Positions 11,665 through 35,427 of a stretch of 40,123 nt of DNA are shown piece by piece. The stretch lies in IMG/VR virus record IMGVR_UViG_3300005337_000033, positions 1 to 40,123 of that record; one strand, 5' to 3'. This stretch comes from a virus. The notes below the pieces were generated by a model that was not told where the DNA came from, ran no database searches, and saw only the letters and a program-made list of their open reading frames with translations. Within the stretch, counting starts at the first letter, position 1. The number at the start of each line of letters is the position of its first letter. A program made the position numbers and the translations under genes.

Positions 11665-11693
11665 ATCATGCCCCCCATTTTGGGGGGTGTCAA
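11665..11693 (-). promoter_or_regulatory. C6-G6 palindrome promoter, copy 1
   Basis: Read on the - strand: TTGACA (11688-11693), 17-base spacer CCCCCCAAAATGGGGGG (11671-11687), then CATGAT (11665-11670). The spacer is an inverted repeat with 6-base arms. The downstream ATG lies 6 bases after the -10. It is the mirror orientation of the other copies. Confidence 0.8.
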
Positions 11694-11706
11694 TACCTGG
11701 GGATGA

Positions 11707-11743
11707 AGAAGGCCCCGAGGTCTCTCCCACCTCGGGGCCTTCT
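11707..11743 (-). terminator. Hairpin terminator
   Basis: A perfect 15-base stem, 11707-11721 pairing 11729-11743 with a 7-base loop, contains AAGGCCCCGAGG. It lies 35 bases downstream of the - strand gene 11779-12090 and just upstream of promoter copy 1, so it insulates the two - strand units. Confidence 0.8.
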
Positions 11744-11778
11744 GGGTGCCGGACCACCAACCGAGCACGCGGCGAAGC

Positions 11779-12090
11779 CTACGCGTCGGTGCCGCCCTGA
11801 CCCTCCGCCGTGCTCTCCGGCGTGTCGTCGCCCTCCGGCTTCCGCCGGCCACCAGTGGACCGCGGCTTCTTCGCCTTCGCGGGCTCGCCGGACTCGGGGT
11901 GCGCGGGCGCCGTGCTGAGCAGCGCCAGGCCCTGCTCGAAGCGCTGCATCGCGCCGACCACCTCGCCGCTGTTCGGGTCGAAGTGCTCTTCGACCGTATC
12001 GGCGATCGTCTTCAGCTGGTCTACGACGGCCCGGAGCCCGCCGCCCTTCGGTGCACTCACGGCGTCGAACCGCTTCGCGTGCTGCCCCAT
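11779..12090 (-). CDS. Hypothetical protein with charged tail
   Basis: The product has 103 residues from the ATG complementary to 12088-12090, preceded on the - strand by AAGGAGGAA. The first half is helical (GGLRAVVDQLKTIADTVEEH, near residues 17-36). The second half is disordered and charged (AKAKKPRSTGGRRKPEGDD). It is divergent from the + strand gene at 12168, and the C6-G6 element at 12101-12129 lies between them just behind its ribosome-binding site. A regulator bound there could affect both directions. Function unknown. Confidence 0.6.
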   Translation of the reverse strand: MGQHAKRFDAVSAPKGGGLRAVVDQLKTIADTVEEHFDPNSGEVVGAMQRFEQGLALLSTAPAHPESGEPAKAKKPRSTGGRRKPEGDDTPESTAEGQGGTDA

Positions 12091-12100
12091 GGCTTCCTCC

Positions 12101-12129
12101 TTGTCACCCCCCAGTTTGGGGGGTACGAT
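12101..12129 (+). promoter_or_regulatory. C6-G6 palindrome promoter, copy 2
   Basis: TTGTCA (12101-12106), 17-base spacer CCCCCCAGTTTGGGGGG (12107-12123), TACGAT (12124-12129). One base in the loop differs from the other copies, while both 6-base arms are intact. It drives the + strand gene at 12168 through a leader of about 30 bases. It also abuts the start of the divergent gene 11779-12090. Confidence 0.75.
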
Positions 12130-12167
12130 CGGGCCTGATCACTAACCGTACGCGAGCGAGGAGCAAC

Positions 12168-12806
12168 ATGCTTCCGATCATCACCATCGGCCTGAGCGAG
12201 CCGGCCCGCGCCGTCATGGAGCGTATCCCGGGTGACCGCGGCCAGGCGCACTATGAGACCGCGGAGGAGGCGCTGTGGGACTTCGGCAGCGTCTCGAACC
12301 CCACCGTGGCCCAGATCAGCCTGGACGCGAAGGGGCGCCTCTGGAGCTGCCACGTCTTCTATGGTGATGACGCGCTGGGCCCGCTGCTGACCGCCACCAA
12401 GGAGTCCACGGTCCCCACGCGGGTGCCGTGCCAGGGCCTGAAGGCCGTCATCACCGACACCCTAGGCAGCGACCCGACGAAGGCTGTACGCGTCGTCGGC
12501 GGACAGCCCGAGCCGCGCACGGCGCCGCACCTCATCGGGGTGGAGGCGGTGAAGGTGCTCGGCGCCGGGGTCTTCCTGGTCGTGGACGAACTCGGGCAGA
12601 ACCCGAGCTGGCCGGACGCCGTGCGCACCATGCTGGAGCACGCGGAGGCGCCGCGCCCGCTCGGCGAGGACCTGGGCTTCGTTCCGGGTGCGGAGGCCCG
12701 CGTGGAGTTGGCCCGGCTGGAGGAGCTGCGCAAGCGCGGCCAGACGCGGCCGGGCCACTTCGAGGCCCAGGACCTCGCGCGCCGGGGCGGGGGGCTTCTG
12801 CCGTGA
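12168..12806 (+). CDS. Hypothetical protein, first gene of copy-2 operon
   Basis: The product has 212 residues from ATG 12168 after GCGAGGAG; upstream in-frame extension would run through the promoter. The protein mixes strands and helices (MLPIITIGLSEPARAVMERI; LLTATKESTVPTRVPCQGLK) and ends in a basic helical segment (RVELARLEELRKRGQTRPG). No membrane span and no family recognised. It starts a three-gene operon with GTGA overlaps at 12803 and 13075. Confidence 0.65.
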   Translation: MLPIITIGLSEPARAVMERIPGDRGQAHYETAEEALWDFGSVSNPTVAQISLDAKGRLWSCHVFYGDDALGPLLTATKESTVPTRVPCQGLKAVITDTLGSDPTKAVRVVGGQPEPRTAPHLIGVEAVKVLGAGVFLVVDELGQNPSWPDAVRTMLEHAEAPRPLGEDLGFVPGAEARVELARLEELRKRGQTRPGHFEAQDLARRGGGLLP

Positions 12807-13078
12807 ACTGGGGAGTGGCGCTGGAGACGGCGTGCTGGCTCATCGCTGGGATCATTCTGCTTGCAGTGATCTTGGGCCTGTTCCGTGACGCCGTGATCAA
12901 GGTCAAGAAGGCGGGTGCCTACCGGGCAGAGCTGGACGCGCCCGAGCTGGGCGGCTACGGCGGCAAGATCACCGTGCGCGTCGACTCGGAGGAGGAGCTG
13001 ATCAAGTTTCTTCAGCGCTACGCCACCGACGTGACCCGGTGGGCCATGTCGCCGGACCGGAAGAAGACGGACCGGTGA
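12803..13078 (+). CDS. Single-span membrane protein
   Basis: GTG 12803 overlaps the previous TGA. The 91-residue product has an N-terminal span (LETACWLIAGIILLAVILGL, residues 7-26). A basic segment (FRDAVIKVKKAGAYR) and a soluble part (GGKITVRVDSEEELIKFLQR) follow, so the bulk is probably cytoplasmic. Function unknown. Confidence 0.6.
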   Translation: MNWGVALETACWLIAGIILLAVILGLFRDAVIKVKKAGAYRAELDAPELGGYGGKITVRVDSEEELIKFLQRYATDVTRWAMSPDRKKTDR

Positions 13079-13554
13079 CCAGCTGGCCCGGGTGGAACGC
13101 GCACGGCTGGTGGATCGGGCCACCGGAGGAGGAGCCCGAGCGCAAGCCGCGCAGGGCGCCGTGCGGCGGGCCGAAGGTGTGCGTCATCTGCGGTGACAAG
13201 ATCAAGTGGCCCAAGCCGCATCCGGACGGCCTGCCGCTCTCGAAATGCAACTTCTGTGACGCCGTCATCATCTGGGCCCTGACGATCCCGAACAAGAACG
13301 CCCGTACTGCTGCCAAGCGCGCCGAGCAGGAGAAGATCCCGTTCGACGCGGTTCCGTCCGAGCAGGGCCTTCACGCGCTCACCCGGCAGGAGGGGAAGCC
13401 GCCGCTGTGTGGGGTCATGACGCGGGTCAAGGCAGCAGCGTTCCGGGCCGCCGGCCAGAAGACGTACCTGCGTCACGTGAAGACCTGCCCGAACGTGGCG
13501 AAGTGGCCGAAGGGCCAGTACATCGTGGCCGCGCGAAGGAAGGCGGAGGAGTAG
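13075..13554 (+). CDS. Zinc-ribbon-like protein
   Basis: The product has 159 residues from GTG 13075 (GTGA overlap), preferred to the in-frame upstream start at 13039. Two CxxC pairs, CVICGDK near residues 36-42 and CNFCDAV near 58-64, form a likely zinc ribbon. A later part has Cys and His residues (PPLCGVM, LRHVKTCPNV) that could form a second site. The protein is basic, so nucleic-acid binding is possible. No named family. It is followed by the tRNA-like stretch and a terminator. Confidence 0.65.
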   Translation: MTSWPGWNAHGWWIGPPEEEPERKPRRAPCGGPKVCVICGDKIKWPKPHPDGLPLSKCNFCDAVIIWALTIPNKNARTAAKRAEQEKIPFDAVPSEQGLHALTRQEGKPPLCGVMTRVKAAAFRAAGQKTYLRHVKTCPNVAKWPKGQYIVAARRKAEE

Positions 13555-13562
13555 CCTCACGA

Positions 13563-13629
13563 GCGGCGGAGATGGCGGGTTCGAGTCCCCCACCCCCAAG
13601 ACGGGTTCGGCTAATTGGCAAGCCGCCGC
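13563..13629 (+). other. tRNA-like parts in permuted order
   Basis: The non-coding stretch holds a T-arm-like piece, GCGGG-TTCGAGT-CCCCC (13575-13591, four of five pairs). It is followed, not preceded, by a D-arm-like piece, GGCT-AATTGGCA-AGCC (13609-13624, all four pairs). GCCGC (13625-13629) could pair GCGGC (13563-13567) as an anticodon stem. ACCCCCA (13592-13598) and GACGGGT (13600-13606) pair at only four of seven positions as an acceptor stem. No tRNA in normal order can be drawn. It may be a permuted tRNA, a remnant, or chance. Confidence 0.3.
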
Positions 13630-13632
13630 ACC

Positions 13633-13679
13633 ACGAAGGCCCCGGGCAGCAGGCCCCCCGACTGCTCCGGGGCCTTCGT
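13633..13679 (+). terminator. Hairpin terminator
   Basis: A 13-base perfect stem (13633-13645 with 13667-13679) extends inward by GCAG/CTGC, with AAGGCCCCGG in the arm. It lies after the gene ending at 13554 and 18 bases before promoter copy 3. Confidence 0.8.
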
Positions 13680-13697
13680 CTTGTCCACAAAACGCCC

Positions 13698-13726
13698 TTG
13701 ACACCCCCCATTTTGGGGGGCATGAT
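13698..13726 (+). promoter_or_regulatory. C6-G6 palindrome promoter, copy 3
   Basis: TTGACA (13698-13703), spacer CCCCCCATTTTGGGGGG (13704-13720, 17 bases), CATGAT (13721-13726). A leader of about 30 bases carries a GGAGG site before ATG 13763. It directly follows a terminator, making this an independent unit. Confidence 0.8.
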
Positions 13727-13762
13727 TGAGGCATCCCCACCACCAACCCCCCGGAGGCCCCG

Positions 13763-14128
13763 ATGCCCACGAACACGCCGGCCGAAAACCCCCGGCTCAC
13801 CCCGGTGTCCACACCGGACCAGCTCCGCGAGCGCATCGAGCAGATCGCAGAGACTGCCGCCGTGCCGACGGTCCGGATCACCACTCGCCTGACCGTGGAT
13901 GGCGTCAAGCTCTACGCGTCGATCATGTGCGTGCGCGAGACCTATGCGGAGGTGCTGACGACGGCGCTCCGGCGCGAGGCCACCGCGGAGTTCGGCCAGC
14001 AGGGCAGCCAGCTGACCGCCCGCCGCGAGGGTCCGCACGTCCACGTGTTCCTCCCGATCCCGAAGCCCGACGCCCAGCTGGGAGCCCAGTTCCTGTCCTC
14101 GCTGGCCTCGCCGAAGACGGAGTTCTGA
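13763..14128 (+). CDS. Hypothetical 121-residue protein
   Basis: ATG 13763 has GGAGG 7 bases upstream. The N-terminus is disordered (MPTNTPAENPRLTPVSTPDQ), then a helix and two long strand-like segments (VRITTRLTVDGVKLYASIMC; PHVHVFLPIPKPD). No family recognised. First gene after promoter copy 3, followed with a 2-base gap by the next gene. Confidence 0.6.
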   Translation: MPTNTPAENPRLTPVSTPDQLRERIEQIAETAAVPTVRITTRLTVDGVKLYASIMCVRETYAEVLTTALRREATAEFGQQGSQLTARREGPHVHVFLPIPKPDAQLGAQFLSSLASPKTEF

Positions 14129-14130
14129 TC

Positions 14131-14463
14131 ATGACCGACACGATCGGGGTCGACGAAGAGCGTGCCCAGCTGATCGAGCGCACCGCGAAGGCGATCTTCC
14201 AGGCCGACGTGTTCGGGCTTCGGCAGATGCCCGAGGGCACGGACCTGCGCGAGCTGTGGAACGCGGAACTGGCGACCAGCCGAATCCGCTACCGCAACCA
14301 GGCCAGGGCCGCGCTCGCCGCCTCCGAGCTGCTGACGCGGCTGGAGGAGCTGGAGCGGGCGATCAACACGGCGCGCAGCCACTTGCACGACCTGGACCAC
14401 CGGACCGTGTCCGTGGCGGCCGCCGAAGCGGTCCTGAACCGGGCCGTGGAGAAGACGACCTAG
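14131..14463 (+). CDS. Hypothetical coiled-coil protein
   Basis: The product has 110 residues from ATG 14131. It is helical almost throughout, with heptad-like stretches (ELLTRLEELERAINTARSHL) that suggest a coiled coil or helical bundle. It may act with the preceding gene product. No function assigned. Confidence 0.6.
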   Translation: MTDTIGVDEERAQLIERTAKAIFQADVFGLRQMPEGTDLRELWNAELATSRIRYRNQARAALAASELLTRLEELERAINTARSHLHDLDHRTVSVAAAEAVLNRAVEKTT

Positions 14464-14505
14464 GGGCGCCCCCACAGCGCGCCCCGCTACCGGAGGAGGC
14501 GCGCT

Positions 14506-14718
14506 GTGGACTGGCGGAAGATGGCCGCGTGCCAGGGGATGGACCCGGAGCTGTGGTTCCCCCTGGGCGACGGCGCCGATGCGCGGGCCGTGTGTGCGCA
14601 CTGCCCGGTGGCGGACGCCTGCCTGGCCTGGGGTCTGGCGATCGGGGCCACGGACGGGATCTTCGGTGGCCTGGACGGCGACGACCGTCGGGCGCTTCGG
14701 ATGGCGGAGAGGGGGTGA
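14506..14718 (+). CDS. WhiB-like iron-sulfur regulator
   Basis: The product has 70 residues from GTG 14506 after CGGAGGAGG. It has the WhiB (Wbl) layout: Cys9, then CAHCPVADAC giving Cys30, Cys33 and Cys39, which bind a [4Fe-4S] cluster. A GIFGG turn (residues 51-55) follows, where most Wbl proteins have GVWGG, and then a basic tail (DDRRALR). Wbl proteins are restricted to actinobacteria and their phages and act by binding the housekeeping sigma factor region 4. Phage WhiB proteins such as that of TM4 can interfere with host WhiB function. The Trp-to-Phe change in the turn is worth noting. Transcribed from promoter copy 3 unless an unseen promoter exists. Confidence 0.9.
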   Translation: MDWRKMAACQGMDPELWFPLGDGADARAVCAHCPVADACLAWGLAIGATDGIFGGLDGDDRRALRMAERG

Positions 14719-14722
14719 TCAG

Positions 14723-14785
14723 GTGGGCACGCGTGTCACGTGCTCGAAGTGCGGGGGCGACCCGCACTCAGGTCCCTGCAAGTAG
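14723..14785 (+). CDS. 20-residue CCHC microprotein
   Basis: GTG 14723 follows GAGAGGGGG by about 7 bases, just after the WhiB stop. The 20-residue product has C-x2-C-x4-H-x3-C (CSKCGGDPHSGPC), one residue shorter than a retroviral-type zinc knuckle. It could fold around one zinc and bind nucleic acid. Its size makes it uncertain, but spacing, ribosome-binding site and motif agree. Confidence 0.4.
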   Translation: MGTRVTCSKCGGDPHSGPCK

Positions 14786-14791
14786 CGGACG

Positions 14792-14822
14792 GTCCCTCGG
14801 GTGGTTCATCCATCCGGGGGAC
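14792..14822 (+). terminator. Hairpin terminator with two G-U pairs
   Basis: GTCCCTCGGGTGG (14792-14804) pairs CCATCCGGGGGAC (14810-14822) over 13 positions, two of them G-U, around a 5-base loop. It lies after the WhiB and microprotein genes and 17 bases before promoter copy 4. Confidence 0.65.
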
Positions 14823-14839
14823 TCTCCGTTGGTGACCGA

Positions 14840-14868
14840 TTGACACCCCCCATTTTGGGGGGTAGATT
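14840..14868 (+). promoter_or_regulatory. C6-G6 palindrome promoter, copy 4
   Basis: TTGACA (14840-14845), spacer CCCCCCATTTTGGGGGG (14846-14862), TAGATT (14863-14868). It drives the RapZ-like/SLOG cassette, whose first ATG is at 14900 after an AAAGGAGG site. Confidence 0.8.
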
Positions 14869-14899
14869 GGAGGGACACCGAGCAAAGGAGGGCCAAGCC

Positions 14900-15283
14900 A
14901 TGATCACCGTTGTCAGCTACGGAGACGGCCACGGACCGCTGACGGAGTACCAGGCGGACGTGATCTTCCCGCTGGCGTCTCGCTTCCGGGACCCGCACGT
15001 CTCCCCGGAGATGCGTGAGATGACCGGCCTGGACAAGCCGGTCGTGGACAACGTGATGGCGCAGCCAGGTGCGCACCCGTACCTGCTGGCCACGTTCAAT
15101 CTGGCCACCTCGCTCTACACCGCGCACGATCGCGCGGACATCGTGGTCGCCTTCTCCTGTGTCGGAGGTCGGCACCGCTCCGTCGCCTTCGCGGCGGCGC
15201 TCCACGCCCTGCTGGTGCGCTGGTTCCCCGGACAGGTAGCGCTGGTCCACCGAGACGTGACGAAGGCTGTGATCCGCCGATGA
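14900..15283 (+). CDS. RapZ C-terminal domain-like protein
   Basis: The product has 127 residues from ATG 14900, with AAAGGAGG about 6 bases upstream; an in-frame start at 14801 lies before the promoter and is rejected. It matches the C-terminal domain of RapZ/YvcJ proteins. DVIFPLASRFRDPHVSPEM and TGLDKPVV correspond to the family's D-x-R-F-x-NP and TGxD stretch, and SCVGGRHRSVA (Cys87 to Ala96) is its GCTGGxHRSV loop. VHRDV near the end matches the family's HRD segment. In E. coli RapZ this domain senses glucosamine-6-phosphate and binds RNA. The P-loop kinase-like half is absent here. Coupled by ATGA to the SLOG protein gene. Confidence 0.8.
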   Translation: MITVVSYGDGHGPLTEYQADVIFPLASRFRDPHVSPEMREMTGLDKPVVDNVMAQPGAHPYLLATFNLATSLYTAHDRADIVVAFSCVGGRHRSVAFAAALHALLVRWFPGQVALVHRDVTKAVIRR

Positions 15284-15705
15284 AACGCGTCATGGTGACC
15301 GGCTCACGCGTGTGGGCGAAGTGCCCACACGACCCGATCCATCCGGACGCCTTCCCCTGCCCGGCCGTGATGAAGCACCGGCGGATCATGCTCGCCGCCT
15401 TCATGGAGCACGTGGTCCCGCTGGCCCGAGAGGACCACGTGGAGCTGATCCACGGCGACGCGGATGGCGCCGACAGACTGGCCGCGCGGTACTGGTCGCT
15501 CTACCGGTTCGGGCCGATTACGGCCTTCCCGTACGTCAAGGAGCTGGGCAAGGCAGGCGGCCACGCGCGCAACGGCGTGATGGTCGCGCACATGCCGGAC
15601 CTGGTGCTGGCGTTCCACCTGGACAACTCCCGCGGCACCGCCGACGCCATCCGGCAGGCGAAGGCCGCGGGACTCACCGTGCACGTCTACCCGAAGGAGA
15701 ACTGA
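15280..15705 (+). CDS. SLOG-family (DUF2493/YspA-like) nucleotide-binding protein
   Basis: The product has 141 residues from ATG 15280 (ATGA overlap). Family marks are RVMVTGSR at the N-terminus, LIHGDADGADRLA (residues 57-69), GGHARNGVMV (93-102) and LVLAFHLDNSRGTADAIRQA. This is the Rossmann-like SLOG fold of the YspA/DUF2493 type, common in phages and thought to bind nucleotide-derived ligands. Members of the wider SLOG superfamily act as sensors in nucleotide-signal defence systems. A phage role in blocking or mimicking such signals is possible but is inference. Confidence 0.85.
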   Translation: MKRVMVTGSRVWAKCPHDPIHPDAFPCPAVMKHRRIMLAAFMEHVVPLAREDHVELIHGDADGADRLAARYWSLYRFGPITAFPYVKELGKAGGHARNGVMVAHMPDLVLAFHLDNSRGTADAIRQAKAAGLTVHVYPKEN

Positions 15706-15707
15706 CC

Positions 15708-16226
15708 GTGCTCACCCCCCGAGTCCTCGCGGCCGCCATTGTGGCGACCGGCGCGGGCGCTGCCATCTTCCTGGCCAGCGGCCAGCAGCCCGCGGCCCCG
15801 GCGCAGCCCGCCAGCGGCCCGGTTCCCGTAGCCATCCCGCCGGCCGTCACCGAAGCAGTCCCGACCCCGCACCCGGCGGTCCCCGCCGCCGAGCGTGTGC
15901 CGCCGTCGTCCATGCCGAGCACCACGCCCGCGGCCCGTCCGGCGCCGAAGCGGGCGAGCGCGCCGGCCACCCCGACTCCGACTCCGGCTCCGAAGCCCAA
16001 GCGGCCCGCGGCCGCCCGGCAGGCCCCACCGGTCACCAGTCAGCAGCAGCCCCGTCCGGCCGACACCGAGCCGAACGGCACCGGCGGCTGGCAGCTGCCC
16101 GCGTGCTATGACCCGTCCTGTGTGGCGGACCCGAACCAGGGCACCGGCACCCAGGCGCTGAACGCGGGGCCCCTGGGTCAGGCGGGCATCGTCAACACGA
16201 TCGCCGACCTGATCGGCCGGCACTGA
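15708..16226 (+). CDS. Secreted or anchored Pro/Ala-rich protein
   Basis: GTG 15708 follows GAAGGAGAA. The 172-residue product has an N-terminal hydrophobic segment (RVLAAAIVATGAGAAIFLAS), then about 100 residues rich in Pro, Ala, Thr and Lys, such as TPTPTPAPKPKRPAAAR. This is a disordered, cell-wall-spanning type of sequence. A short C-terminal part has two cysteines (PACYDPSCVADP). It is probably exported and held at the envelope. A surface role such as superinfection exclusion is conceivable, but nothing in the sequence shows it. Confidence 0.6.
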   Translation: MLTPRVLAAAIVATGAGAAIFLASGQQPAAPAQPASGPVPVAIPPAVTEAVPTPHPAVPAAERVPPSSMPSTTPAARPAPKRASAPATPTPTPAPKPKRPAAARQAPPVTSQQQPRPADTEPNGTGGWQLPACYDPSCVADPNQGTGTQALNAGPLGQAGIVNTIADLIGRH

Positions 16227-16405
16227 TGACCGGCCGCTACGCAGTGCAAGCTGTTCCGCAGGGGGCGGGCTGGTTGATGGTCGCCGACCTCCTGAGCGAC
16301 CGACCGGAGGTCATGCCCGCTGCGATGTTCCGTCCGGAGTACCGCGAGGAGGCCCAGGAGTTCGCCGACCGGCTGAACGTCCGCGAGCTGGCGAGGAGGG
16401 GCTGA
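16226..16405 (+). CDS. Hypothetical 59-residue protein
   Basis: ATG 16226 shares one base with the previous stop (TGATG). The product starts MTGRYAVQAVPQGAGWLMVA and continues with a charged helix (YREEAQEFADRLNVRELA). It looks like a small strand-helix domain. No family recognised. The next ATG shares one base with its stop. Confidence 0.5.
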   Translation: MTGRYAVQAVPQGAGWLMVADLLSDRPEVMPAAMFRPEYREEAQEFADRLNVRELARRG

Positions 16406-16596
16406 TGTTCAACCCTGGCGTGGAACCGATGAGCCCGGCCGTCCAGGAGCACGGCCCCGAGGCCCTGCGCGCCGTGGCGGCCGGCGACGGACCGGCCTTG
16501 GATCGAGCACTGTCGGCGCTCGACTTCATGGACCTGGAGGCGCTCCAGCAGGCGGCCGCCTTCCTGGCAGATGCGTGCCGAGCGAGTTCAAGGTGA
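16405..16596 (+). CDS. Hypothetical 63-residue helical protein
   Basis: ATG 16405 shares one base with the preceding stop, after GAGGAGGGG. The product is helical and acidic (PEALRAVAAGDGPALDRALS; LEALQQAAAFLADACRASSR). Function unknown. Confidence 0.5.
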   Translation: MFNPGVEPMSPAVQEHGPEALRAVAAGDGPALDRALSALDFMDLEALQQAAAFLADACRASSR

Positions 16597-16778
16597 TGGT
16601 GACGGGGCAGTACGACCGCGAGCAGCTGGCGGCCGCAGTGTGGCAGGCGACCGGCGGAGACATGGCCGGCGCCCTGGCGATCGCGGACGGCTGGAGCGCG
16701 AACGCGATCGAGGACTTTGCGGAGCAGCTCCGCGAGTTCGCGAAGGAACTGGATCGACTGGCGAGGAGCAGACGATGA
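16596..16778 (+). CDS. Hypothetical 60-residue helical protein
   Basis: ATG 16596 is chosen because it shares one base with the previous stop; an in-frame GTG at 16575 would add 7 residues. The product has a short N-terminal part and a long amphipathic helix (IEDFAEQLREFAKELDRLAR). Its stop overlaps the next ATG. Function unknown. Confidence 0.5.
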   Translation: MVTGQYDREQLAAAVWQATGGDMAGALAIADGWSANAIEDFAEQLREFAKELDRLARSRR

Positions 16779-17044
16779 TCACACCGTGGGACAACGACGT
16801 GGCGGAGGCTGTGCGGCGCGCGTACGCGGGCGTGTCGGACAACTGGCCGCTGACCGCCCGGACGCTGGCCACCGAGCTGGCAGAGGTGCGGAAGCAGCTG
16901 AACGACAAGCTGGCAGAGGACCTGAAGCGCTGCCCGCGGTGCCACGTCGTGGCGCTGGGCGTAGTCGTGGAGGAAGGAAAGCCGACGCGGTACCACCACG
17001 AGACGACGACACACTTCGACCTCCTGACGGACCTCACCGTTTGA
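16775..17044 (+). CDS. Hypothetical protein with CPRC motif
   Basis: The product has 89 residues from ATG 16775 (ATGA overlap). A helical part (LATELAEVRKQLNDKLAEDL) precedes CPRCHVV and a His-rich segment (YHHETTTHF), so a metal site is possible. Its TGA (17042-17044) lies inside the TTGACA box of promoter copy 5, so the operon end and the next promoter physically overlap. Confidence 0.55.
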   Translation: MITPWDNDVAEAVRRAYAGVSDNWPLTARTLATELAEVRKQLNDKLAEDLKRCPRCHVVALGVVVEEGKPTRYHHETTTHFDLLTDLTV

Positions 17045-17069
17045 CACCCCCCATTTTGGGGGGTAGGAT
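17041..17069 (+). promoter_or_regulatory. C6-G6 palindrome promoter, copy 5
   Basis: TTGACA (17041-17046), spacer CCCCCCATTTTGGGGGG (17047-17063), TAGGAT (17064-17069). The transcript would start near 17076 and have a leader of nearly 100 bases before ATG 17172, the longest leader in the family. Confidence 0.8.
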
Positions 17070-17099
17070 CGGACCGTCTCGATCTTCTGATATTGCGTG

Positions 17100-17140
17100 C
17101 TCCCCGATCGCCGGATGGCACCGGGCCGACGACCGGGGAG
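17100..17140 (+). promoter_or_regulatory. Leader hairpin upstream of 17172 gene
   Basis: CTCCCCGATCG (17100-17110) can pair CGACCGGGGAG (17130-17140) at ten of eleven positions, with an A-C mismatch inside. It sits in the middle of the leader, with no run of T after it. It could modulate translation or transcription of the downstream gene. Confidence 0.4.
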
Positions 17141-17171
17141 CCGCACCAACCACCACCTGAAGGAGCACACC

Positions 17172-17612
17172 ATGCCTGACCCCAGCATTGCGATCCAGGG
17201 TTGGCGCTACACCAAGGTGACCACCGAGCAGGCGGAGTACGCCGCGCAGGTCACGGCGGCGGGCCTCACCCCGGCGTCCGAGACGAAGACAACCGTGGTC
17301 GAGACCGTGGCCGCCCGCTTCGAGCTGTTCGACGCGGAGCCGTTCGCGAAGACGAGGCGCTCGACCAACCAGGTTCGGCCGGAGGCGCTGAACGTAGTGT
17401 TCACGTCTACCGACAACGGGGCCTGGTACGTCGAGTACGGCATGACCCTGACGGGCTCGAACATCCTCAAGGGCGGCAAGCTCGGGTCGGAGCAGGTGGT
17501 CCGCGCGAGCGACTGGCCCGAGGAGATCCGCGCACTGGTCACCACCGGGAAGTACACCTACGACCCAGCAGGCCAGGCGGCGGACTGGATCTACGGCGAG
17601 TACCCCCGATGA
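17172..17612 (+). CDS. Hypothetical 146-residue protein
   Basis: ATG 17172 follows AAGGAG by 7 bases. The product is strand-rich, with helices at the start (TTEQAEYAAQVTAAGL) and later strand-like parts (LNVVFTSTDNGAWYVEYGMT). There are no cysteines or membrane spans. No family recognised. It is coupled by ATGA to a membrane protein gene. Confidence 0.6.
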   Translation: MPDPSIAIQGWRYTKVTTEQAEYAAQVTAAGLTPASETKTTVVETVAARFELFDAEPFAKTRRSTNQVRPEALNVVFTSTDNGAWYVEYGMTLTGSNILKGGKLGSEQVVRASDWPEEIRALVTTGKYTYDPAGQAADWIYGEYPR

Positions 17613-17830
17613 TCTTGATCCTGCTGTGGATCGTGTTCTTCCGGGCGGTCTTCTGGTGCTTCGCGGCCATGATCTGGCTGTGCTTCGCCTCCGCCGCCTG
17701 GATGCTGGTCCTCCTCGCCGCCACCCTGCTGGTCTGGTTCGACCGCCGCGCGACCGTGAACATGCTCGCCAGCGCGGCCCGCATCTTCGCCCCGCCGCAC
17801 TACCTGCGGTCCCGTAGATCCCACACATAG
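17609..17830 (+). CDS. Two-span membrane protein
   Basis: The product has 73 residues from ATG 17609 (ATGA overlap). Hydrophobic segments run nearly continuously from residue 2 to 43 (ILILLWIVFFRAVFW; FASAAWMLVLLAATLLVW), enough for two spans. A basic C-terminus (RSRRSHT) is probably cytoplasmic. Function unknown. Confidence 0.6.
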   Translation: MILILLWIVFFRAVFWCFAAMIWLCFASAAWMLVLLAATLLVWFDRRATVNMLASAARIFAPPHYLRSRRSHT

Positions 17831-17841
17831 CGCGCACGCTG

Positions 17842-17880
17842 AGTGCCCCGTCTCCTACGCTCGCCGGGAGACGGGGCACT
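17842..17880 (+). terminator. Hairpin terminator
   Basis: A perfect 14-base stem (17842-17855 with 17867-17880) has an 11-base loop and GTGCCCCGTCTCC in the arm. It ends the non-structural block before the capsid gene. The 90 bases that follow show no clear housekeeping-type promoter, so the capsid operon start may need a late-specific factor or read-through. Confidence 0.8.
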
Positions 17881-17971
17881 TGCGCGTTCCGGGCTCCAAG
17901 CCTGATCACCGCGCTGGCGCTCTAAGCACCGACCGGCCCCCGTCACCGAGACGACACGGAAGGGGCCGATC

Positions 17972-19711
17972 GTGGACCCGAAGCGCATTGCGGAGATCCT
18001 GGGGGATCTCGCCAACGCCAGCGAAGCGGACATCCGCGCGGCCTTGGCCGCCCTGGGTGCGCAGGGCAAGGAGCTGGCCCTGAACCCGCCGACCGCCGAG
18101 AACGTGGCGGCGGTCGAAGAGGTCGTGAAGAACGCGAAGACGCTGTCCGCCGCGCTCACCGAGAAGGCGGAGCTGGCAGGCAAGCAGACCGCCGCGCTCG
18201 CGGAGCTGGACGGCGTGCACGACCCGGCTCGCGACCACGTGGAGCAGCCCACGGCGGAGAACACCAAGGATGTGCCCGCCCCGGCGGACGCGGGTGCGAC
18301 CACCGACCCAGGCGCCGACGTGGAGGGCGACGACGGGGACAAGGGCGACACCGCGAAGAAGGCGGCGCCGGCCAAGAAGGCGCGCACCGCGTCCGGCCTG
18401 GGCAAGATCGGCAAGGACGGGTCCCCCGAGCAGGACGCGAAGGCGGGCGCCGTCCAGGCGACCACCACCGTGGCGGCCGGCGTGCCGGGCTTCTCGCCGG
18501 GCCAGCAGCTGACCGAGGACGCGTTCGTGAAGGCGTTCGCGGCGGTCGCTCGCTCGAAGGGCAACGGCTCCGCGAACATCGCGCACGTGGAGTTCGCCTA
18601 CCCGGCAGAGCGCACCCTGGGCGACGACTCGGCGGCGAACCAGGCGCGCATCGCGGCGGCCACCGACGAGCAGGCCATCACCGCGGCGGGCGGGCTCTGC
18701 CTGCCGCCCGAGGTCCGCTACGACATCAACGTCCTGGGCGTGACGGACCGGCCTGTCCACCAGGCGCTGAACACGTTCCGGACGGAGCGCGGCATCCTCC
18801 AGTACCGGGCGCCGTTCGACGCGCTGGCGATGACCTCGGGCCTGGGCATGTGGACCCAGACGGACGACCAGGCGATCGTGATCCCGCCGGCCGACCCGGA
18901 CACGAACGTGTACAAGTCCTGCTACGTGGTGAGCTGCCCCGGCGTGCTCGAAGCCTCGATCTACTCCACGTACATGTGCCTGGAGTTCCCGAACATGACC
19001 GCCCGGTTCGACACCGAGTGGGTCCGGGCGACCACCCAGGCCGCGCAGATCGCGTGGAGCCGGTACACGGAGAACAACCTGCTCTCCCGGCTGTTCTCCG
19101 CCTCCAAGATCCTCAAGGGCATGGGCCCCGCGGTGTCCGCGGTCGCCGACCTGCTGGCCACCTACGACCGGGTGATCGCCTACTACCGGAACCGGCACCG
19201 CCTGAACTCGCGGGTGTCGCTCCGGACGATCATGCCCCAGTGGGTGATCAACCTCCTGATGACCGACCTCGCGCGGCGCTTCACCATGGCGTCCCCGGGC
19301 GAGCTGTTCGGCATCGCCCAGTCCGAGCTGGAGCGCTGGTTCTCCACGCGCGGCGTGAACGTCACCTGGCACCTGGACGGCCTGGCCGGCGCCACGGTGT
19401 CCGGCGTGACCGTCGCCCAGCAGTTCTACGACGACAGTGTCGCGGGCGCGGTGGTCCCGCAGTACCCGGCGAACGTGGACAGCCTGCTGTTCGTGGAGGG
19501 TGACTGGCTGCTGCTCGACGGCGGCACGCTGGACCTGGGCCTGGTGCGGGACTCCGAGCTGAACAAGCGGAACCGCTACCAGACGTTCATCGAGACCTTC
19601 GAGGGCGTGGCCTTCACGGGCAAGGAGTCCCTGCGCGTGGTCCTGCCGCTCCGTCCGGACGGCTCGGCGGCGGGCACGAAGGCTGTCCCGGCCGGCGGCT
19701 GGGACGCCTGA
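17972..19711 (+). CDS. Major capsid protein with N-terminal delta/scaffold region
   Basis: The product has 579 residues from GTG 17972 after GGAAGGGG. Residues 1 to about 180 are helical and charged (KRIAEILGDLANASEADIRA) and then low-complexity Ala/Lys/Asp. This resembles the delta domain of HK97-fold capsid proteins that guides assembly and is removed by the maturation protease. The remainder looks like a capsid core: AFVKAFAAVARSKGNG, LPPEVRYDINVLGVTDRPVH, NRYQTFIETFEGVAFTGKES. Family knowledge predicts cleavage near the end of the Ala/Lys-rich part by the 6745 protease; the exact site is not visible. A hairpin follows the stop. Confidence 0.85.
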   Translation: MDPKRIAEILGDLANASEADIRAALAALGAQGKELALNPPTAENVAAVEEVVKNAKTLSAALTEKAELAGKQTAALAELDGVHDPARDHVEQPTAENTKDVPAPADAGATTDPGADVEGDDGDKGDTAKKAAPAKKARTASGLGKIGKDGSPEQDAKAGAVQATTTVAAGVPGFSPGQQLTEDAFVKAFAAVARSKGNGSANIAHVEFAYPAERTLGDDSAANQARIAAATDEQAITAAGGLCLPPEVRYDINVLGVTDRPVHQALNTFRTERGILQYRAPFDALAMTSGLGMWTQTDDQAIVIPPADPDTNVYKSCYVVSCPGVLEASIYSTYMCLEFPNMTARFDTEWVRATTQAAQIAWSRYTENNLLSRLFSASKILKGMGPAVSAVADLLATYDRVIAYYRNRHRLNSRVSLRTIMPQWVINLLMTDLARRFTMASPGELFGIAQSELERWFSTRGVNVTWHLDGLAGATVSGVTVAQQFYDDSVAGAVVPQYPANVDSLLFVEGDWLLLDGGTLDLGLVRDSELNKRNRYQTFIETFEGVAFTGKESLRVVLPLRPDGSAAGTKAVPAGGWDA

Positions 19712-19717
19712 TCGCTT

Positions 19718-19752
19718 CCGCCCGGCCCTCACCCCGACGGGGGGCCGGGCGG
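19718..19752 (+). terminator. Hairpin after capsid gene
   Basis: CCGCCCGGCCC (19718-19728) pairs GGGCCGGGCGG (19742-19752) over 11 bases, with a further CCCC/GGGG possible inside. It may be a partial terminator that sets the ratio of capsid to downstream transcripts, or a stabiliser of the capsid mRNA 3' end. Confidence 0.55.
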
Positions 19753-30891: not shown

Positions 30892-30929
30892 CCTGAAGGC
30901 ACCGTGCTGGGCAGGTGCGGTTCCTCCGA

Positions 30930-30963
30930 CGAAGGCCCCCGGAGCAGCGACCGGGGGCCTTCG
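30930..30963. terminator. Bidirectional hairpin terminator
   Basis: A perfect 13-base stem (30930-30942 with 30951-30963) has an 8-base loop and GAAGGCCCCCGG in the arm. It lies between the tail operon (+) and the convergent HNH gene (-), ending both. Confidence 0.85.
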
Positions 30964-30967
30964 CGTG

Positions 30968-31423
30968 TCACCGGTACTGACTGCGGGCCGGGCGAGCCGC
31001 GGGGACGTAGCCCTGGGTCTGCTCCAGCGTGCGCCACAGGTAGCGCTGGGACCGGTTGGACAGCTCGCCCATGGTCCCCTCTTCGTCCAAGATCATCCAG
31101 GTGCGGCCCCGGTACAGCAGCGGCTCCAGCCGCGCCTCCTCCACGACGTTCCGGAGCAGGTACCCGCGCGGGCGGCTCCAGCTCGGGCGCTGGTGCACCG
31201 ACCAGGAGGCGCCGTTGTGCACCTCGGGATCGAGCGCCAGCAGGTTGGCGGCGGTGTCGGTGTCCGGACGGTACGTGCCGCCCATCCCCTTCGGTCGGCG
31301 GTGGTGGGCATCGAAGGTCTCGAAGTCCAGGGGCCGCCCGCTCACCTCGCAAAACCCGTCACACCGCACCCACAGCGTCTCCCGGAGTTGACGCCAGTTC
31401 GGGTCTGCTCGCTTCTTGCCCAT
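30968..31423 (-). CDS. HNH endonuclease
   Basis: The product has 151 residues from the ATG complementary to 31421-31423, with AAGGAGAG just upstream. HNH-fold marks are CDGFCEVSGRPLDFETFDAH (Cys21, Cys25, His40), HRRPKG, Asn60 in NLLAL and His69. The C-terminal 70 residues are basic and Trp/Arg-rich. HNH enzymes are metal-dependent nickases or nucleases. In phages they serve in packaging, recombination or homing. As the only - strand gene in this half, divergent from the recombination operon, it may be a moron or homing-type element, but it has no LAGLIDADG or NUMOD parts that I can see. Confidence 0.8.
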   Translation of the reverse strand: MGKKRADPNWRQLRETLWVRCDGFCEVSGRPLDFETFDAHHRRPKGMGGTYRPDTDTAANLLALDPEVHNGASWSVHQRPSWSRPRGYLLRNVVEEARLEPLLYRGRTWMILDEEGTMGELSNRSQRYLWRTLEQTQGYVPAARPARSQYR

Positions 31424-31450
31424 CTCGCTCTCCTTGGTGGCCCGCAGCTA

Positions 31451-31481
31451 TTGCACTTACCCCCATTATAGGGGGTAAGAT
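31451..31481 (+). promoter_or_regulatory. Variant palindrome promoter, copy 6
   Basis: TTACCCCC-ATTATA-GGGGGTAA (31457-31478) has perfect 8-base arms and an A/T centre. It overlaps TAAGAT (31476-31481), a -10 that ends 7 bases before ATG 31489. The only -35-like TTGCAC (31451-31456) is 19 bases upstream, so this copy departs from the 17-base rule. On the - strand the centre reads TATAAT, a possible -10 for the divergent HNH gene. Confidence 0.6.
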
Positions 31482-31488
31482 GGCAGTC

Positions 31489-31908
31489 ATGGACAGCACG
31501 ACTACCCCCGAAAAGGCGGAAGAGGAGAAGGTGCCGGAGGAGATCATGATCCGGCTCGACCTCTACGACTCCGCCATGGACCGCGCAGAGTCTCAGGGTG
31601 AGACCTTGGCCAGCGTGACCCGCGCGTGTTACTTCGCGGCGGCCGCGCTGGCAACGCCCGTCGAAGGCGGCAAGGCGCGAATCCGCCCCCGCCCGTACGG
31701 CGAGGACCGCGAGCGCATCCGGTTCCGGATCCCCCGGAGCCAGCGCACCGCGGCCCGCAACACGATCGAGTCGGCGGGGGTTGGCGTCCCTGCCGCCGTC
31801 GAGCAGCTGCTGGAGTACTACGTGGAGCACGGGACGATCATCGGCTTCGCTGCGCTGGTGATTCCCGAACCCCCTGCCGCCGACGACACCACCGAAGAGA
31901 GCGAGTGA
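31489..31908 (+). CDS. Tandem ribbon-helix-helix DNA-binding protein
   Basis: The product has 139 residues from ATG 31489. An in-frame ATG at 31480 lies inside the -10, so the later one is chosen, which makes the mRNA leaderless. Two copies of a strand-helix-helix pattern are visible. Residues 19-54 (IMIRLDLYDSAMDRAESQGE...) and 77-112 (IRFRIPRSQRTAARNTIESA...) each have alternating strand residues and then two helices, as in MetJ/Arc proteins. A single chain with two such units would form an intramolecular dimer. Its own promoter holds the variant palindrome, as expected for an autoregulator. Family assignment is by pattern only. It heads the recombination operon with the Erf-type gene. Confidence 0.55.
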   Translation: MDSTTTPEKAEEEKVPEEIMIRLDLYDSAMDRAESQGETLASVTRACYFAAAALATPVEGGKARIRPRPYGEDRERIRFRIPRSQRTAARNTIESAGVGVPAAVEQLLEYYVEHGTIIGFAALVIPEPPAADDTTEESE

Positions 31909-31910
31909 TC

Positions 31911-32840
31911 ATGACCGCACCTGCCCAGCACGAAGCCGCGCCCAGCGGACCTCCGGCGATCTTGGCGGCAATCGCTGCTGTCATGAAGTCGGTGACGTAC
32001 ATCCCGAAGGCGGGCCAGTACGGCAAGGAGGGTGACCGGGGCGGCACGTACAAGTTCCGCAAGTTCGAGGACACCGCCGCCGCGCTCGGACAGGCGTTCC
32101 GCGACCACCTGATCTTCGTTCAGTCCGAGGTGATCAGCCGCGAGATCGCGGAGCCGGAGAAGAAGCCGTACAGCACGGGCTCCGGCTACACCATGTGGAC
32201 TCAGGTCTTCGTGACCGTGCGGTACCGCTTCACCAGCCTGGTGGACGGCTCGGTGCTCACCGCCGAAGCCGCCGGGGAGGGCAAGGACTCCAGCGACAAG
32301 GCCAGCTCGAAGGCCATGACCATGGCCATGAAGTACGCCCTCACTCAGGCGTTCATGATCGCCACCGACGACCCGGACCCCGACAGCCAGCGCCCCGGCG
32401 ACGACTACTCCGAGCCGATCGGCCAGGGCCGCGGATACGACCCGAACGAGGCGGCTCGCAAGCGGGCAGCTCAGCAGCGCCAGCAGGCCGCCGCCGCGGG
32501 CGTCACGCCGCCGGAGCAGTCCGGCAACCGCGAGGAGAAGAACGCCCAGTGGTCCGCCTGGGTGCAGCGCGAGTTCACGAACGACGCCATGACCCTGGAG
32601 CGGCTGGCGTACATCCACATGATGACGAAGCAGCGCGGTCTCCTGGGCATCGACGCGGCCGGGGTGCCGCTGGAGCAGCGCATCCGCGCGGAGCTGGCCC
32701 GCTTTGGCATCGACCCGAACGTCACCATGCCGACGCCCGAGCAGGCGCAGCGGTGGATGGCCCAGAACGGTGGCGTGACGCGCGCGGAGTCGGCCCAGCC
32801 GAACAGCATGACCACGCCCCCCGACGGAACGGGGTACTGA
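31911..32840 (+). CDS. Erf-family single-strand annealing protein
   Basis: The product has 309 residues from ATG 31911, 2 bases after the previous stop; upstream in-frame extension runs through the RHH gene. PAILAAIAAVMKSVTYIPKA, then GGTYKFRKFEDTAAALGQAF and DKASSKAMTMAMKYALTQAF, follow the P22 Erf family pattern. Erf-type proteins anneal complementary single strands and promote recombination or circularisation of phage DNA. The C-terminal 110 residues are Gln/Ala-rich with a helical domain. With SSB nearby, it forms a recombination module; no exonuclease is recognised beside it. Confidence 0.85.
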   Translation: MTAPAQHEAAPSGPPAILAAIAAVMKSVTYIPKAGQYGKEGDRGGTYKFRKFEDTAAALGQAFRDHLIFVQSEVISREIAEPEKKPYSTGSGYTMWTQVFVTVRYRFTSLVDGSVLTAEAAGEGKDSSDKASSKAMTMAMKYALTQAFMIATDDPDPDSQRPGDDYSEPIGQGRGYDPNEAARKRAAQQRQQAAAAGVTPPEQSGNREEKNAQWSAWVQREFTNDAMTLERLAYIHMMTKQRGLLGIDAAGVPLEQRIRAELARFGIDPNVTMPTPEQAQRWMAQNGGVTRAESAQPNSMTTPPDGTGY

Positions 32841-32842
32841 CC

Positions 32843-34141
32843 ATGGGTGAGGTGACTTCCGCGCAGACCACGATCGAGCGCGTTTGGCCTGCCCACGCCG
32901 GACACAACTCCGGCACGCGGCACGCCCGCTGGTCCACCGCCGACGGCATCGTGTGTGCGTGCGGCGACCACCTCGGGTGGCCGGACCCCGAACACAGCGA
33001 GACCTACAGCCAGTACACGAAGCGCATGGCGAAGGCGCAGGTGGACGCCGCCAGTGCGCCTGGTCGCGTCCAGGGCGCCTTCGGGACGTACTCGCGGCCG
33101 GCGCCCGAGCCGGAGGACGGCGAGCTGGCCGCCGCGCTCCCGGGTGGCGACAACGCGCCCGAGCCCGGTGACTACGCGGCCCCCGAGGTCCAGGAGCCTC
33201 CCCGGCATGACGACGACCCCGGGCCCGCGGAGCCCGAGGACGCGGAGGTGGACTGGGGCGAGCCGCCGGCCGATGAGCCGGAGCCCGAGGTCCTGGAGAT
33301 CTCGGACGCGGCCTGGGAGGACTCCGCCGTCCGGCAGGCCGTCCGAGCGACCGGAGTCCGCAGCATGACGGAGGTCGAGCTGCCCGGCGGAGACGAAGCC
33401 CAGGCGGAGCCGTGGGGCGCTGCGCCGGTGGCTGAAGAGCCTCCGCCGTGGCACGGTGTGGACGACGCACCCGAGCAGCACGGCTGGGCGCCCGGCGAGC
33501 GCACCGACGCGGTGGAGATCGCCGATGGGAGCCAGGCGGAGTACGCCGTGGGCGACCAGGTGACCGTGGCCGGAATGACCTTCACGAAGCACTCGGAGAG
33601 CCCATTCCCCGAGCACAACCGCGAGCCCGAGAAACCCTCAAATGAGGGGATCGGCTCGGAGGTTGTGCCGTACTCCGGAACGCCCATCGTGCCGACAGCG
33701 GAGCAGGAGCTGGACCCGCTCACTGGCCGGCTGGCCCCGCTGGACCCGACGCTTCCGTACACCCCGGCTGACGTAGAGATCAAGATCGTCGAGATCATGC
33801 GGCAGATGGAGAACTCGGAGGTCTTCCTTCGCCAGCAGCTGGCCCGCCTCCACCAGGCCCAGCACAACCTGGACTTCCGCTACAACCTGGCCATCGCGAA
33901 GTCTGACGCCCGATCGGCCGACCAGCGGAAGGCGGAAGCCTGGATTGCCACCGAGCGCGAGCGCTTCGAGGCCACCCAGGCGGACATGCTGGTGCGCGCG
34001 CTGCGCGACTCCCAGCACAACCTCCGCGCCCAGCTGTCCGGCTTCCAGTCCGTGGCCCGCTCCCTCGCGGTGTCCATGGTCAATGCCCTGGACGGGCGCG
34101 AGCGGCCGCCGCTCCCGCCCGAGCCGCCGCGCTGGAACTGA
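32843..34141 (+). CDS. Acidic recombination-region protein with coiled coil
   Basis: The product has 432 residues from ATG 32843. A short N-terminal CACGDH site may bind zinc. Residues about 70-280 are a long acidic, Pro-rich disordered stretch (PEPEDAEVDWGEPPADEPEP). The C-terminal 120 residues form a likely coiled coil (IVEIMRQMENSEVFLRQQLA; HNLDFRYNLAIAKSDARSAD). Position between Erf-type and SSB genes suggests an accessory recombination or replication factor, but I recognise no family. Confidence 0.6.
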   Translation: MGEVTSAQTTIERVWPAHAGHNSGTRHARWSTADGIVCACGDHLGWPDPEHSETYSQYTKRMAKAQVDAASAPGRVQGAFGTYSRPAPEPEDGELAAALPGGDNAPEPGDYAAPEVQEPPRHDDDPGPAEPEDAEVDWGEPPADEPEPEVLEISDAAWEDSAVRQAVRATGVRSMTEVELPGGDEAQAEPWGAAPVAEEPPPWHGVDDAPEQHGWAPGERTDAVEIADGSQAEYAVGDQVTVAGMTFTKHSESPFPEHNREPEKPSNEGIGSEVVPYSGTPIVPTAEQELDPLTGRLAPLDPTLPYTPADVEIKIVEIMRQMENSEVFLRQQLARLHQAQHNLDFRYNLAIAKSDARSADQRKAEAWIATERERFEATQADMLVRALRDSQHNLRAQLSGFQSVARSLAVSMVNALDGRERPPLPPEPPRWN

Positions 34142-34182
34142 AGACCTGCCCTTTCTAGATCAACAATCGGAGGAACAAGATC

Positions 34183-34773
34183 ATGGCTGGAAACGCACAG
34201 ATCAGCTTCGTGGGCAACCTCGGAGGTGACCCCGAACTCCGCTTCACGCCGTCCGGCGCGGCGGTGACGAACTTCAGCGTGGGCGTCCAGGACCGCCGCA
34301 AGGAAGGTGACCAGTGGGTGGACGGGGAAACCACCTGGTACCGGTGCAACGCCTGGCGCACGCTCGCGGAGAACATCGCGGAGTCCCTGACGAAGGGCAC
34401 CCGCGTGGTCGTCACGGGGACGATCAGGTCCCGGAGCTACGAGACCCGCGAGGGCGCCAAGGGCGTGTCCTGGGAGGTGGAGGTGGACTCTATCGGCCCG
34501 GACCTCCGCTTCGCCACGGCCCGCGTCCAGCGCGCGGAGCGTTCCGGCGGTTACGACCAGGGCGGCGGTGGTGGCTGGAACCAGGGTGGTGGCGGCCAGG
34601 GCCGTTCCCAGGGCGGCGGCGGCCAGTACGGCGGCCGCCCGCAGGGTGGCGGCGGTGCGCCGGCCGACCCGTGGGGCCAGCCCCCGCAGGGTGGCGGCGG
34701 CTACGGCGGCGGAGGCTTCACCGACGAACCGCCTTTCCACCACCCGCCTGCAATGGACCACTTTCTGGCCTGA
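34183..34773 (+). CDS. ssb: Single-stranded DNA-binding protein (SSB)
   Basis: The product has 196 residues from ATG 34183 after CGGAGGAA. The OB-fold domain is clear: [52 protein letters not shown] and [21 protein letters not shown] Gly/Gln-rich linker follows from residue 125. SSB coats unwound DNA and recruits partners through its last residues. Here the usual actinobacterial tip DEPPF occurs at residues 181-185 but is followed by eleven more residues ([11 protein letters not shown]). The partner-binding tip is therefore internal, or replaced by the new end. Confidence 0.95.
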
Positions 34774-34774
34774 G

Positions 34775-34793
34775 TGTTCTAAACTTTAGAACA
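34775..34793 (+). promoter_or_regulatory. A/T-rich perfect palindrome at HNH start
   Basis: TGTTCTAAACTTTAGAACA is a perfect 19-base palindrome about a central C, in a very GC-rich setting. Its last A is the A of the ATG at 34793. It could be an operator, or a hairpin that hides the start codon. There is no ribosome-binding site between it and the ATG. Confidence 0.6.
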
Positions 34794-35278
34794 TGAGTCG
34801 TCAAGCCTGGGGTGAAGTCCCCATCCCCGACCGGGTGGCCGAACGTGCGGCCACCCGGTTTCGGGCGTCCGGCGAATGCCAGATCAGCACCTACTCTGTG
34901 GCCAGTCACGGGTACGCGCAGATCGGCTGGAAAGACGACGAAGGTGTCATGCGCGGAACTACCGCACACCGAGCCGCCTGGGTCTACCACACCGGTCGCC
35001 AGATCACGCCCGGCGTGACGATCGATCATCGCCAGGCGGACGGGTGCACATCTCGCCAGTGTGTCCGCTTCGAGCACCTGCGCGAGCTGGTGAACCTGGA
35101 GAACGCGCGTCGGCACCTTGGGCGGGACTGGCCAGTGGACGGCCGATGCAGGCATGGTCACGACGAACGGTGGTGGCGCCCGAAGGGACCGACGCGGCGG
35201 AAAGGCTACTGTGCCGCCTGCCGCTCGGTGCTCCAGCAGACGCGCCGGGGTTCGAAGCGACGGAAGACGTACACCTGA
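34793..35278 (+). CDS. HNH homing-type endonuclease
   Basis: The product has 161 residues from ATG 34793. It has the HNH_3-like signature TTAHRAAWVYHTGRQITPGV, IDHRQADGCTSRQCVRFEHL and NLENARRHLG, with His59, Asp78-His79, zinc-type Cys85/Cys90 and Asn104. This pattern is typical of free-standing homing nucleases in actinophages. The C-terminal part is basic with a CAAC pair. Insertion between SSB and a terminator, with an A/T-rich palindrome at its start unlike its neighbours, suggests it arrived as a mobile gene. Confidence 0.8.
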   Translation: MSRQAWGEVPIPDRVAERAATRFRASGECQISTYSVASHGYAQIGWKDDEGVMRGTTAHRAAWVYHTGRQITPGVTIDHRQADGCTSRQCVRFEHLRELVNLENARRHLGRDWPVDGRCRHGHDERWWRPKGPTRRKGYCAACRSVLQQTRRGSKRRKTYT

Positions 35279-35319
35279 TGACTCCCGGCGGAAGACAGGT
35301 GCGGGTCTGCCGTCGGTGA

Positions 35320-35349
35320 GCGCGAGCCGGTCTCGTGGCGCGAGCCGGT
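35320..35349 (+). repeat. Two direct copies of a 12-base repeat
   Basis: GCGCGAGCCGGT occurs at 35320-35331 and 35338-35349, 18 bases apart, in the non-coding stretch after the HNH gene. No gene is seen between 35279 and 35433. Confidence 0.6.
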
Positions 35350-35359
35350 GACCGCGATC

Positions 35360-35400
35360 AAGTACACCCCCGGGCGTGACGGCCACCCGGGGGTGTACTT
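35360..35400 (+). terminator. Hairpin terminator overlapping promoter copy 7
   Basis: A perfect 15-base stem (35360-35374 with 35386-35400) has an 11-base loop. Its last two T bases are also the first two of the -35 box of promoter copy 7. Confidence 0.8.
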
Positions 35401-35427
35401 GTGTACCCCCATTTTGGGGGGTACGAT
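35399..35427 (+). promoter_or_regulatory. C5-G6 palindrome promoter, copy 7
   Basis: TTGTGT (35399-35404), spacer ACCCCCATTTTGGGGGG (35405-35421, 17 bases), TACGAT (35422-35427). The first arm base is A instead of C, and the extended palindrome GTACCCCC/GGGGGTAC is kept. ATG 35434 lies 6 bases after the -10. Confidence 0.75.

Follow-up and report, generated by a model that had tools for sequence, protein, structure and literature searches.

The virus record IMGVR_UViG_3300005337_000033 of IMG/VR, analyzed here over its entire length (40,123 nt, 40.1 kb; "the window"), raises the question of why the gap between the -35 and -10 boxes of its promoters is occupied by a C6-N5-G6 palindrome, and what could bind there. 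Related contigs that look complete measure 55-62 kb, so the record is probably a fragment. Sequence comparison indicates that in almost every recognizable promoter of this phage and of about 30 relatives a palindromic putative protein-binding site fills the gap between the boxes. The 17-base palindrome is probably the operator of a phage-encoded factor, for which the best candidate is a predicted tandem ribbon-helix-helix (RHH) protein encoded at 31489-31908, and the bound factor would exclude RNA polymerase.

Five exact copies of C6-N5-G6 are present in the window, versus a mean of 0.02 and a maximum of 1 in 100 dinucleotide-preserving shuffles of it, and seven copies with at most one mismatch, versus a mean of 1.09 and a maximum of 6. 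Six of these seven palindromes are embedded in a promoter, a rule met by 0.4% of random positions in 17 related contigs. The six promoters listed in an earlier note on this DNA were all found where it had placed them, each with a TTG... box, a spacer of exactly 17 bases and a TA/CA...T box; the palindrome is exact in five of them and one base off in the copy at 35399. Their -35 boxes are TTGACA (four sites), TTGTCA (12101) and TTGTGT (35399), and their -10 boxes are CATGAT and TACGAT (two sites each), TAGATT and TAGGAT (one each). All strict-consensus TTGAC[AT]-17/18-TANNNT sites in the window contain the palindrome. The same note had overlooked a degenerate seventh site (31452-31482) and had located the sites within diverse genes; in fact, the window sites occupy intergenic gaps shortly upstream of genes, and at 17041 the overlap is confined to the final bases of the gene before it.

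The promoter-plus-palindrome pattern, which the earlier note had proposed to look for in relatives, recurs in many viral contigs; these carriers have portal, capsid protease, major capsid and tape-measure genes in common (genes were called with a codon-model caller; the relatives, part of which were gathered via capsid alignment, are given G numbers). In the 17 related IMG/VR contigs, 113 of the 150 C6-N5-G6-type palindromes are promoter-embedded, versus 0.4% of random positions; the selection on spacer palindromes postulated for this phage appears to hold over the whole family. The spacing around the embedded palindromes is 17 (75 sites), 18 (34) or 19 (4) bases, and the -35 box is TTGACA in 66 of the 113, the rest being TTGTGT, TTGCGT and others. 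Intergenic TTG[AT]C[AT]-17/18-TANNNT sites devoid of the palindrome are absent from 16 of the 17 contigs, the exception being G025. The exact 17-mer CCCCCCATTTTGGGGGG, searched without the boxes, falls nearly always within such promoters in contigs of the group; its remaining matches are scattered, several of them in AT-rich sequence. Over all genomes, 96 of 181 TTGAC[AT] sites carry at least five C-G pairs across the spacer (53%, versus 8% of shuffled spacers). An ATG or GTG start lies 6-7 nt past the -10 box in 49 of the 113 embedded sites, and most of the others are followed by a gene start 25-40 nt downstream; the former position likely fits leaderless actinobacterial mRNAs with transcription starting about 7 nt past the -10 box.

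The half-sites differ between lineages. The form C6-N5-G6 is found in the window, G001, G006, G019, G031 and G032, C6-N3-G6 in G036 and G038, CCCAC-N7-GTGGG in G039, G043 and G044, CCCG..CGGG in G034, G035 and G041, and a looser CCCACCG form in G025, G014, G045 and G053. All forms have a common core: CCC where the spacer adjoins the -35 box, and GG close to the -10 box. As the spacer palindrome is kept while half-site and spacing vary by lineage, this is the pattern which a coevolving regulator and operator would give, and the promoter design is older than its sequence.

The mechanism most likely to underlie this arrangement is a phage-wide autoregulated promoter switch acting by occlusion repression. 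The operator would exactly fill the -35/-10 spacer of nearly all recognizable sigma-A-type phage promoters. Each RHH chain would fold as one pseudo-dimer, and a pair of molecules would bind, one to each C/G half-site, the centres of which lie 11 bp or one helical turn from each other in C6-N5-G6; the G-tract would be read by the Arg-rich strand RxRxR. The spacing argument and the contact scheme follow general knowledge of RHH repressors. The protein bound in the spacer would compete with RNA polymerase, leaving the promoter occluded, and its accumulation would damp the remaining phage promoters along with its own operon, because the candidate's early-type operon has the same promoter class. 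The sequence itself shows the sites with their promoter context, the likely leaderless starts, a design conserved under changing half-sites and, as a prediction, the fold; that a protein binds, which one it is, that it represses instead of activating, and when it acts are what we infer here. Ten family members were checked by Pfam for integrase and for the regulators considered below. No tyrosine integrase (PF00589) was found in them, some of the records being fragments and the search not extending to serine integrases or plasmid-like maintenance; a scan of bacterial genomes for the motif gave 16 matches, about the chance expectation, and no convincing prophage. Considering both results, a role in immunity is possible, but it is not our first choice.

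The candidate (31489-31908, plus strand; 139 aa) is encoded in an early-type operon together with Erf-like and SSB genes, and its relatives occur throughout the phage family. Strands are predicted at residues 14-22 and 74-82, and helices at 23-35, 40-54, 83-95 and 100-114; the AlphaFold2 model, built from an 11-sequence alignment, displays the strand-helix-helix order twice, with core pLDDT (predicted local distance difference test) values mostly above 85. As modeled, the protein fits the definition of a tandem RHH, that is, two beta-alpha-alpha units per chain with one two-stranded sheet. Among solved structures, the closest fold is that of one chain in the F-plasmid relaxosome entries (Z 9.2, root-mean-square deviation (rmsd) 3.0, 98 residues), which we take to be TraY, a name that the entry titles do not give; AvtR is a further match (Z 6.9, rmsd 3.1, 80 residues). 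Orthologs weakly match the Arc-like repressor phrog_6506 (E 0.002 and 0.011). Among named phages, tblastn of the candidate gave no match, and tblastn of an ortholog gave weak ones only (E 0.3-0.5), which fall in methylase genes of Arthrobacter phages.

Comparison of 31 genomes relates the protein to the operator. RERIRFRIP is the sequence of the second strand; the central R78 is Arg in 30 genomes and Lys in G033 (R78 and E18 were invariant in the first RHH alignment), and the half-site begins with CCC in nearly all genomes. Where residue 76, an adjacent position predicted to face the DNA, is Arg or Lys (22 genomes), A at half-site position 4 never exceeds 6%, whereas seven of the nine genomes with another residue have at least 25% A there (7/9 versus 0/22; naive Fisher p 1e-5, with kinship ignored). 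A spacer-palindrome promoter stands just upstream of the RHH gene in 24 of the 31 genomes (random windows: 5.5%), which suggests autoregulation. In the presence/absence tally, the gene was found in all 25 near-complete operator-bearing relatives and in none of the four relatives without operators.

Several observations weigh against the operator reading or against this binder. By the strict box rule, 37 of the 150 palindromes lie outside promoters; such palindromes without boxes had been named in advance as counter-evidence, and they occur to a minor extent only. The Pfam scan of 31489-31908 gave no RHH model at threshold and no Pfam match at all. The residue/half-site link tracks phylogeny, so that independent changes are few; two genomes, G013 and G052, depart from it. 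Since the RHH gene is the first of its operon, an upstream site is to be expected, as for any operon here. Finally, the HNH, Erf-like, 432-aa, SSB, 233-aa and 159-aa families are likewise distributed 25/25 and 0/4, so the co-occurrence supports a module rather than the RHH protein alone, which we infer to be the binder. What makes the RHH gene stand out is its predicted fold together with the residue/half-site pattern.

Of the alternatives, the one that survives best, albeit unlikely, keeps the operator regulon and assigns it to another phage binder: the winged-helix-like protein 37297-37914, the CxxC protein 13075-13554 or the 233-aa protein 35877-36578. The latter two share the 25/25 and 0/4 distribution, and 37297-37914 (24/25, 0/4) has a weak winged-helix match; on the other side, this protein belongs to phrog_1123 of unknown function, none of the three is a known symmetric sequence-specific binder, and the residue/half-site link was found for the RHH candidate, the only protein examined for it. 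Less probable again is that, through a bend or twist imposed on the spacer, the RHH protein activates, or activates at low levels and represses at high ones. The viral tandem RHH protein AvtR exerts concentration-dependent activation and repression of gp30 (PMC5569661), and the -35 box is poor (TTGTGT, TTGCGT) in some lineages; yet the spacing is 17-18 bases in 109 of the 113 sites, and the many full TTGACA boxes should need no activator.

Recruitment of a host regulator seems improbable. Palindromes of C/G tracts are typical of CsoR/RcnR family operators, which the G-tract palindrome resembles; no CsoR-family gene (PF02583) was found in any of the ten members, so such a factor would need to be the host's, and variation of half-site sequence and spacing by phage lineage fits phage-encoded binders better than a host regulator. 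A phage-encoded CsoR was rejected on the same count (0/10), as was a MerR regulator (no MerR_1, PF13411, in the ten members; spacing of 17-18 in 109/113, versus 19-20 bp for the MerR type). A WhiB regulator, present in seven of the ten members and in the window (14506-14718, plus strand; PF02467, E 1.7e-19), was rejected as well, the operator-bearing G001, G021 and G043 having none. That the palindromes are a chance product of the C/G runs that GC-rich genomes contain, or a DNA or RNA hairpin, is hardly credible: many copies do have perfectly complementary arms, but 0.02 exact copies are expected by chance and the promoter context is not random (113/150 versus 0.4%), while the hairpin was rejected since arm changes (e.g., the last C to T) are uncompensated on the opposite side within a phage, and since the palindrome lies upstream of the expected start and is thus not transcribed from its own promoter.

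The genes behind the window sites outline the putative regulon. On the minus strand, TTGACA-CCCCCCAAAATGGGGGG-CATGAT (11665-11693, TTGACA at 11693 reading left) probably drives a likely leaderless 62-aa gene with its ATG 6 nt past the -10 box (11470-11658, minus strand; phrog_14103, function unknown, with mycobacteriophage relatives). All other sites are on the plus strand: TTGTCA-CCCCCCAGTTTGGGGGG-TACGAT (12101-12129) is upstream of the gene 12168-12806, TTGACA-CCCCCCATTTTGGGGGG-CATGAT (13698-13726) of 13763-14128, TTGACA-CCCCCCATTTTGGGGGG-TAGATT (14840-14868) of 14900-15283, and TTGACA-CCCCCCATTTTGGGGGG-TAGGAT (17041-17069) of 17172-17612, 17609-17830 and the major capsid gene at 17972. The degenerate TTGCAC-TTACCCCCATTATAGGGGG-TAAGAT (31452-31482), with a 19-base spacer, precedes the regulator candidate, whose ATG follows shortly past the -10 box; its extended palindrome is CTTACCCCC-ATTATA-GGGGGTAAG, and similar orthologous sites occur in G002, G010, G017 and G020. 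At TTGTGT-ACCCCCATTTTGGGGGG-TACGAT (35399-35427), the likely leaderless ATG at 35434 opens a 53-aa gene (35434-35595, plus strand) heading the 35434-37914 operon. The earlier proposal of one switch for several accessory cassettes thus stands in part: the palindromes do look like operators of one regulon, but its limitation to accessory genes fails, as sites also precede the recombination genes together with the regulator candidate (31452), the 35434-37914 operon, and a series of genes that continues into the major capsid gene (17041).

Some further features were observed. The gene straight behind the 14840 promoter (14900-15283) is RapZ C-terminal-domain-like and is followed by a SLOG/YspA-like one (15280-15705, plus strand). 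A near-perfect 15-bp GC-rich hairpin at 35360-35400 ends with the TT of the 35399 -35 box, and in relatives with TTGTGT promoters a similar CCCGGGGG..TAC stretch lies directly upstream. The promoters at G009:15937, G018:2462, G007:21644 and G020:35857 share a CCGGACCGGTCCG-like palindrome on their upstream side and, downstream, an element resembling GTCAAGCAGTACCGG; a second regulator may bind there. At G002:8585 (adjoining the end of a DnaB-like gene), G010:25351 and G020:20433, a long palindrome ACTCA-C6-N5-G6-TGAGT stands without promoter boxes, where it might be a terminator or an origin, among other roles. G019:52869-55596 encodes, as judged by eye, a DUF2637-like membrane protein and an FtsK/TraB-like ATPase, resembling Streptomyces plasmid transfer genes. 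A tRNA-Glu (CTC) gene is located at 2588-2670 of the window (minus strand).

In these uncultivated actinobacterial phages, which form a large group, a simple sequence signature marks nearly all recognizable promoters, together with likely leaderless starts and a candidate master regulator. If the RHH protein is the binder, one protein could switch the whole phage genome. For dissecting RHH specificity, the family would provide naturally occurring pairs of regulator and operator variants, and tight, tunable promoters for use in actinobacteria could be drawn from it.

Among known systems, the closest functional analogue of the candidate is AvtR of Acidianus filamentous virus 6 (PDB 4hv0), likewise a viral tandem RHH protein by fold, which recognizes an imperfect inverted repeat, acts as repressor of its own gene and has eight potential genomic sites (PMC5569661); it differs in acting on archaeal promoters, and its sites have not been described as fixed spacers between bacterial -35 and -10 boxes. 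The TraY-type chain (entries 9f0x-9f12), the best structural match, also has two RHH motifs, but is a conjugation accessory protein at oriT without a phage-wide promoter set. Cluster A mycobacteriophages have 20-30 dispersed stoperators for one phage regulator, the site diverging along with it; these sites are 13-14 bp, asymmetric, monomer-bound, mostly not promoter-associated, and block elongation (PMC6550527), whereas the present ones are palindromic, fill promoter spacers and mostly lie in promoters (113/150), and hence are not stoperators as so defined. Cluster O (Corndog) also has a dispersed 17-bp palindrome (7-3-7 with a TTT/AAA centre, more than 30 copies), although it has another sequence, is often intragenic and is given apart from the 8-9 predicted SigA promoters (PMC4351075). 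The Streptomyces phage phiC31 similarly contains many copies of a short dispersed palindrome, of a different sequence (CCTACTCACGTGAGTAGG), and the region scanned in it has no TTGAC[AT]-16/19-TANNNT promoters. These palindromes are the operators of its repressor.

Comparable arrangements are found in the mycobacteriophages Nigel (L332, L333), with seven sites of the TTGACT-TACCCG..CGGGT-TA(G/C)TGT type, and Thonko (L334), with ten TTGACA/T-..GTCGGG-TAACTT sites. Both carry palindromic spacers in promoters, more regular in Nigel, and small RHH-type proteins: Thonko gp67 is annotated as RHH, and we read Nigel gp61 as similar to it. Their half-sites are different and their proteins have a single RHH; the resemblance lies in the layout. 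A short BLAST search of named phages with a 32-base site gave no match, possibly owing to low-complexity masking. The earlier note had known of no such spacer design elsewhere, a claim to be qualified in view of the similar layout, though of other sequence, in these two phages; as to published descriptions it still stands, none having been found in the open-access literature, Nigel and Thonko included. A phage regulator with dispersed operators is a known arrangement, and the present case stands out by its unusual and strikingly uniform promoter design. In our view, the chances are about even for the broader proposition that the family has made nearly all its sigma-A promoters one class, with a putative tandem-RHH operator as spacer, operator and protein codiverging and position fixed, and that this, with the comparable designs of Nigel and Thonko, represents an undescribed general mode of phage control. 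The comparison also suggests that actinophages, the named ones included, have repeatedly adopted operators that fill the spacer.

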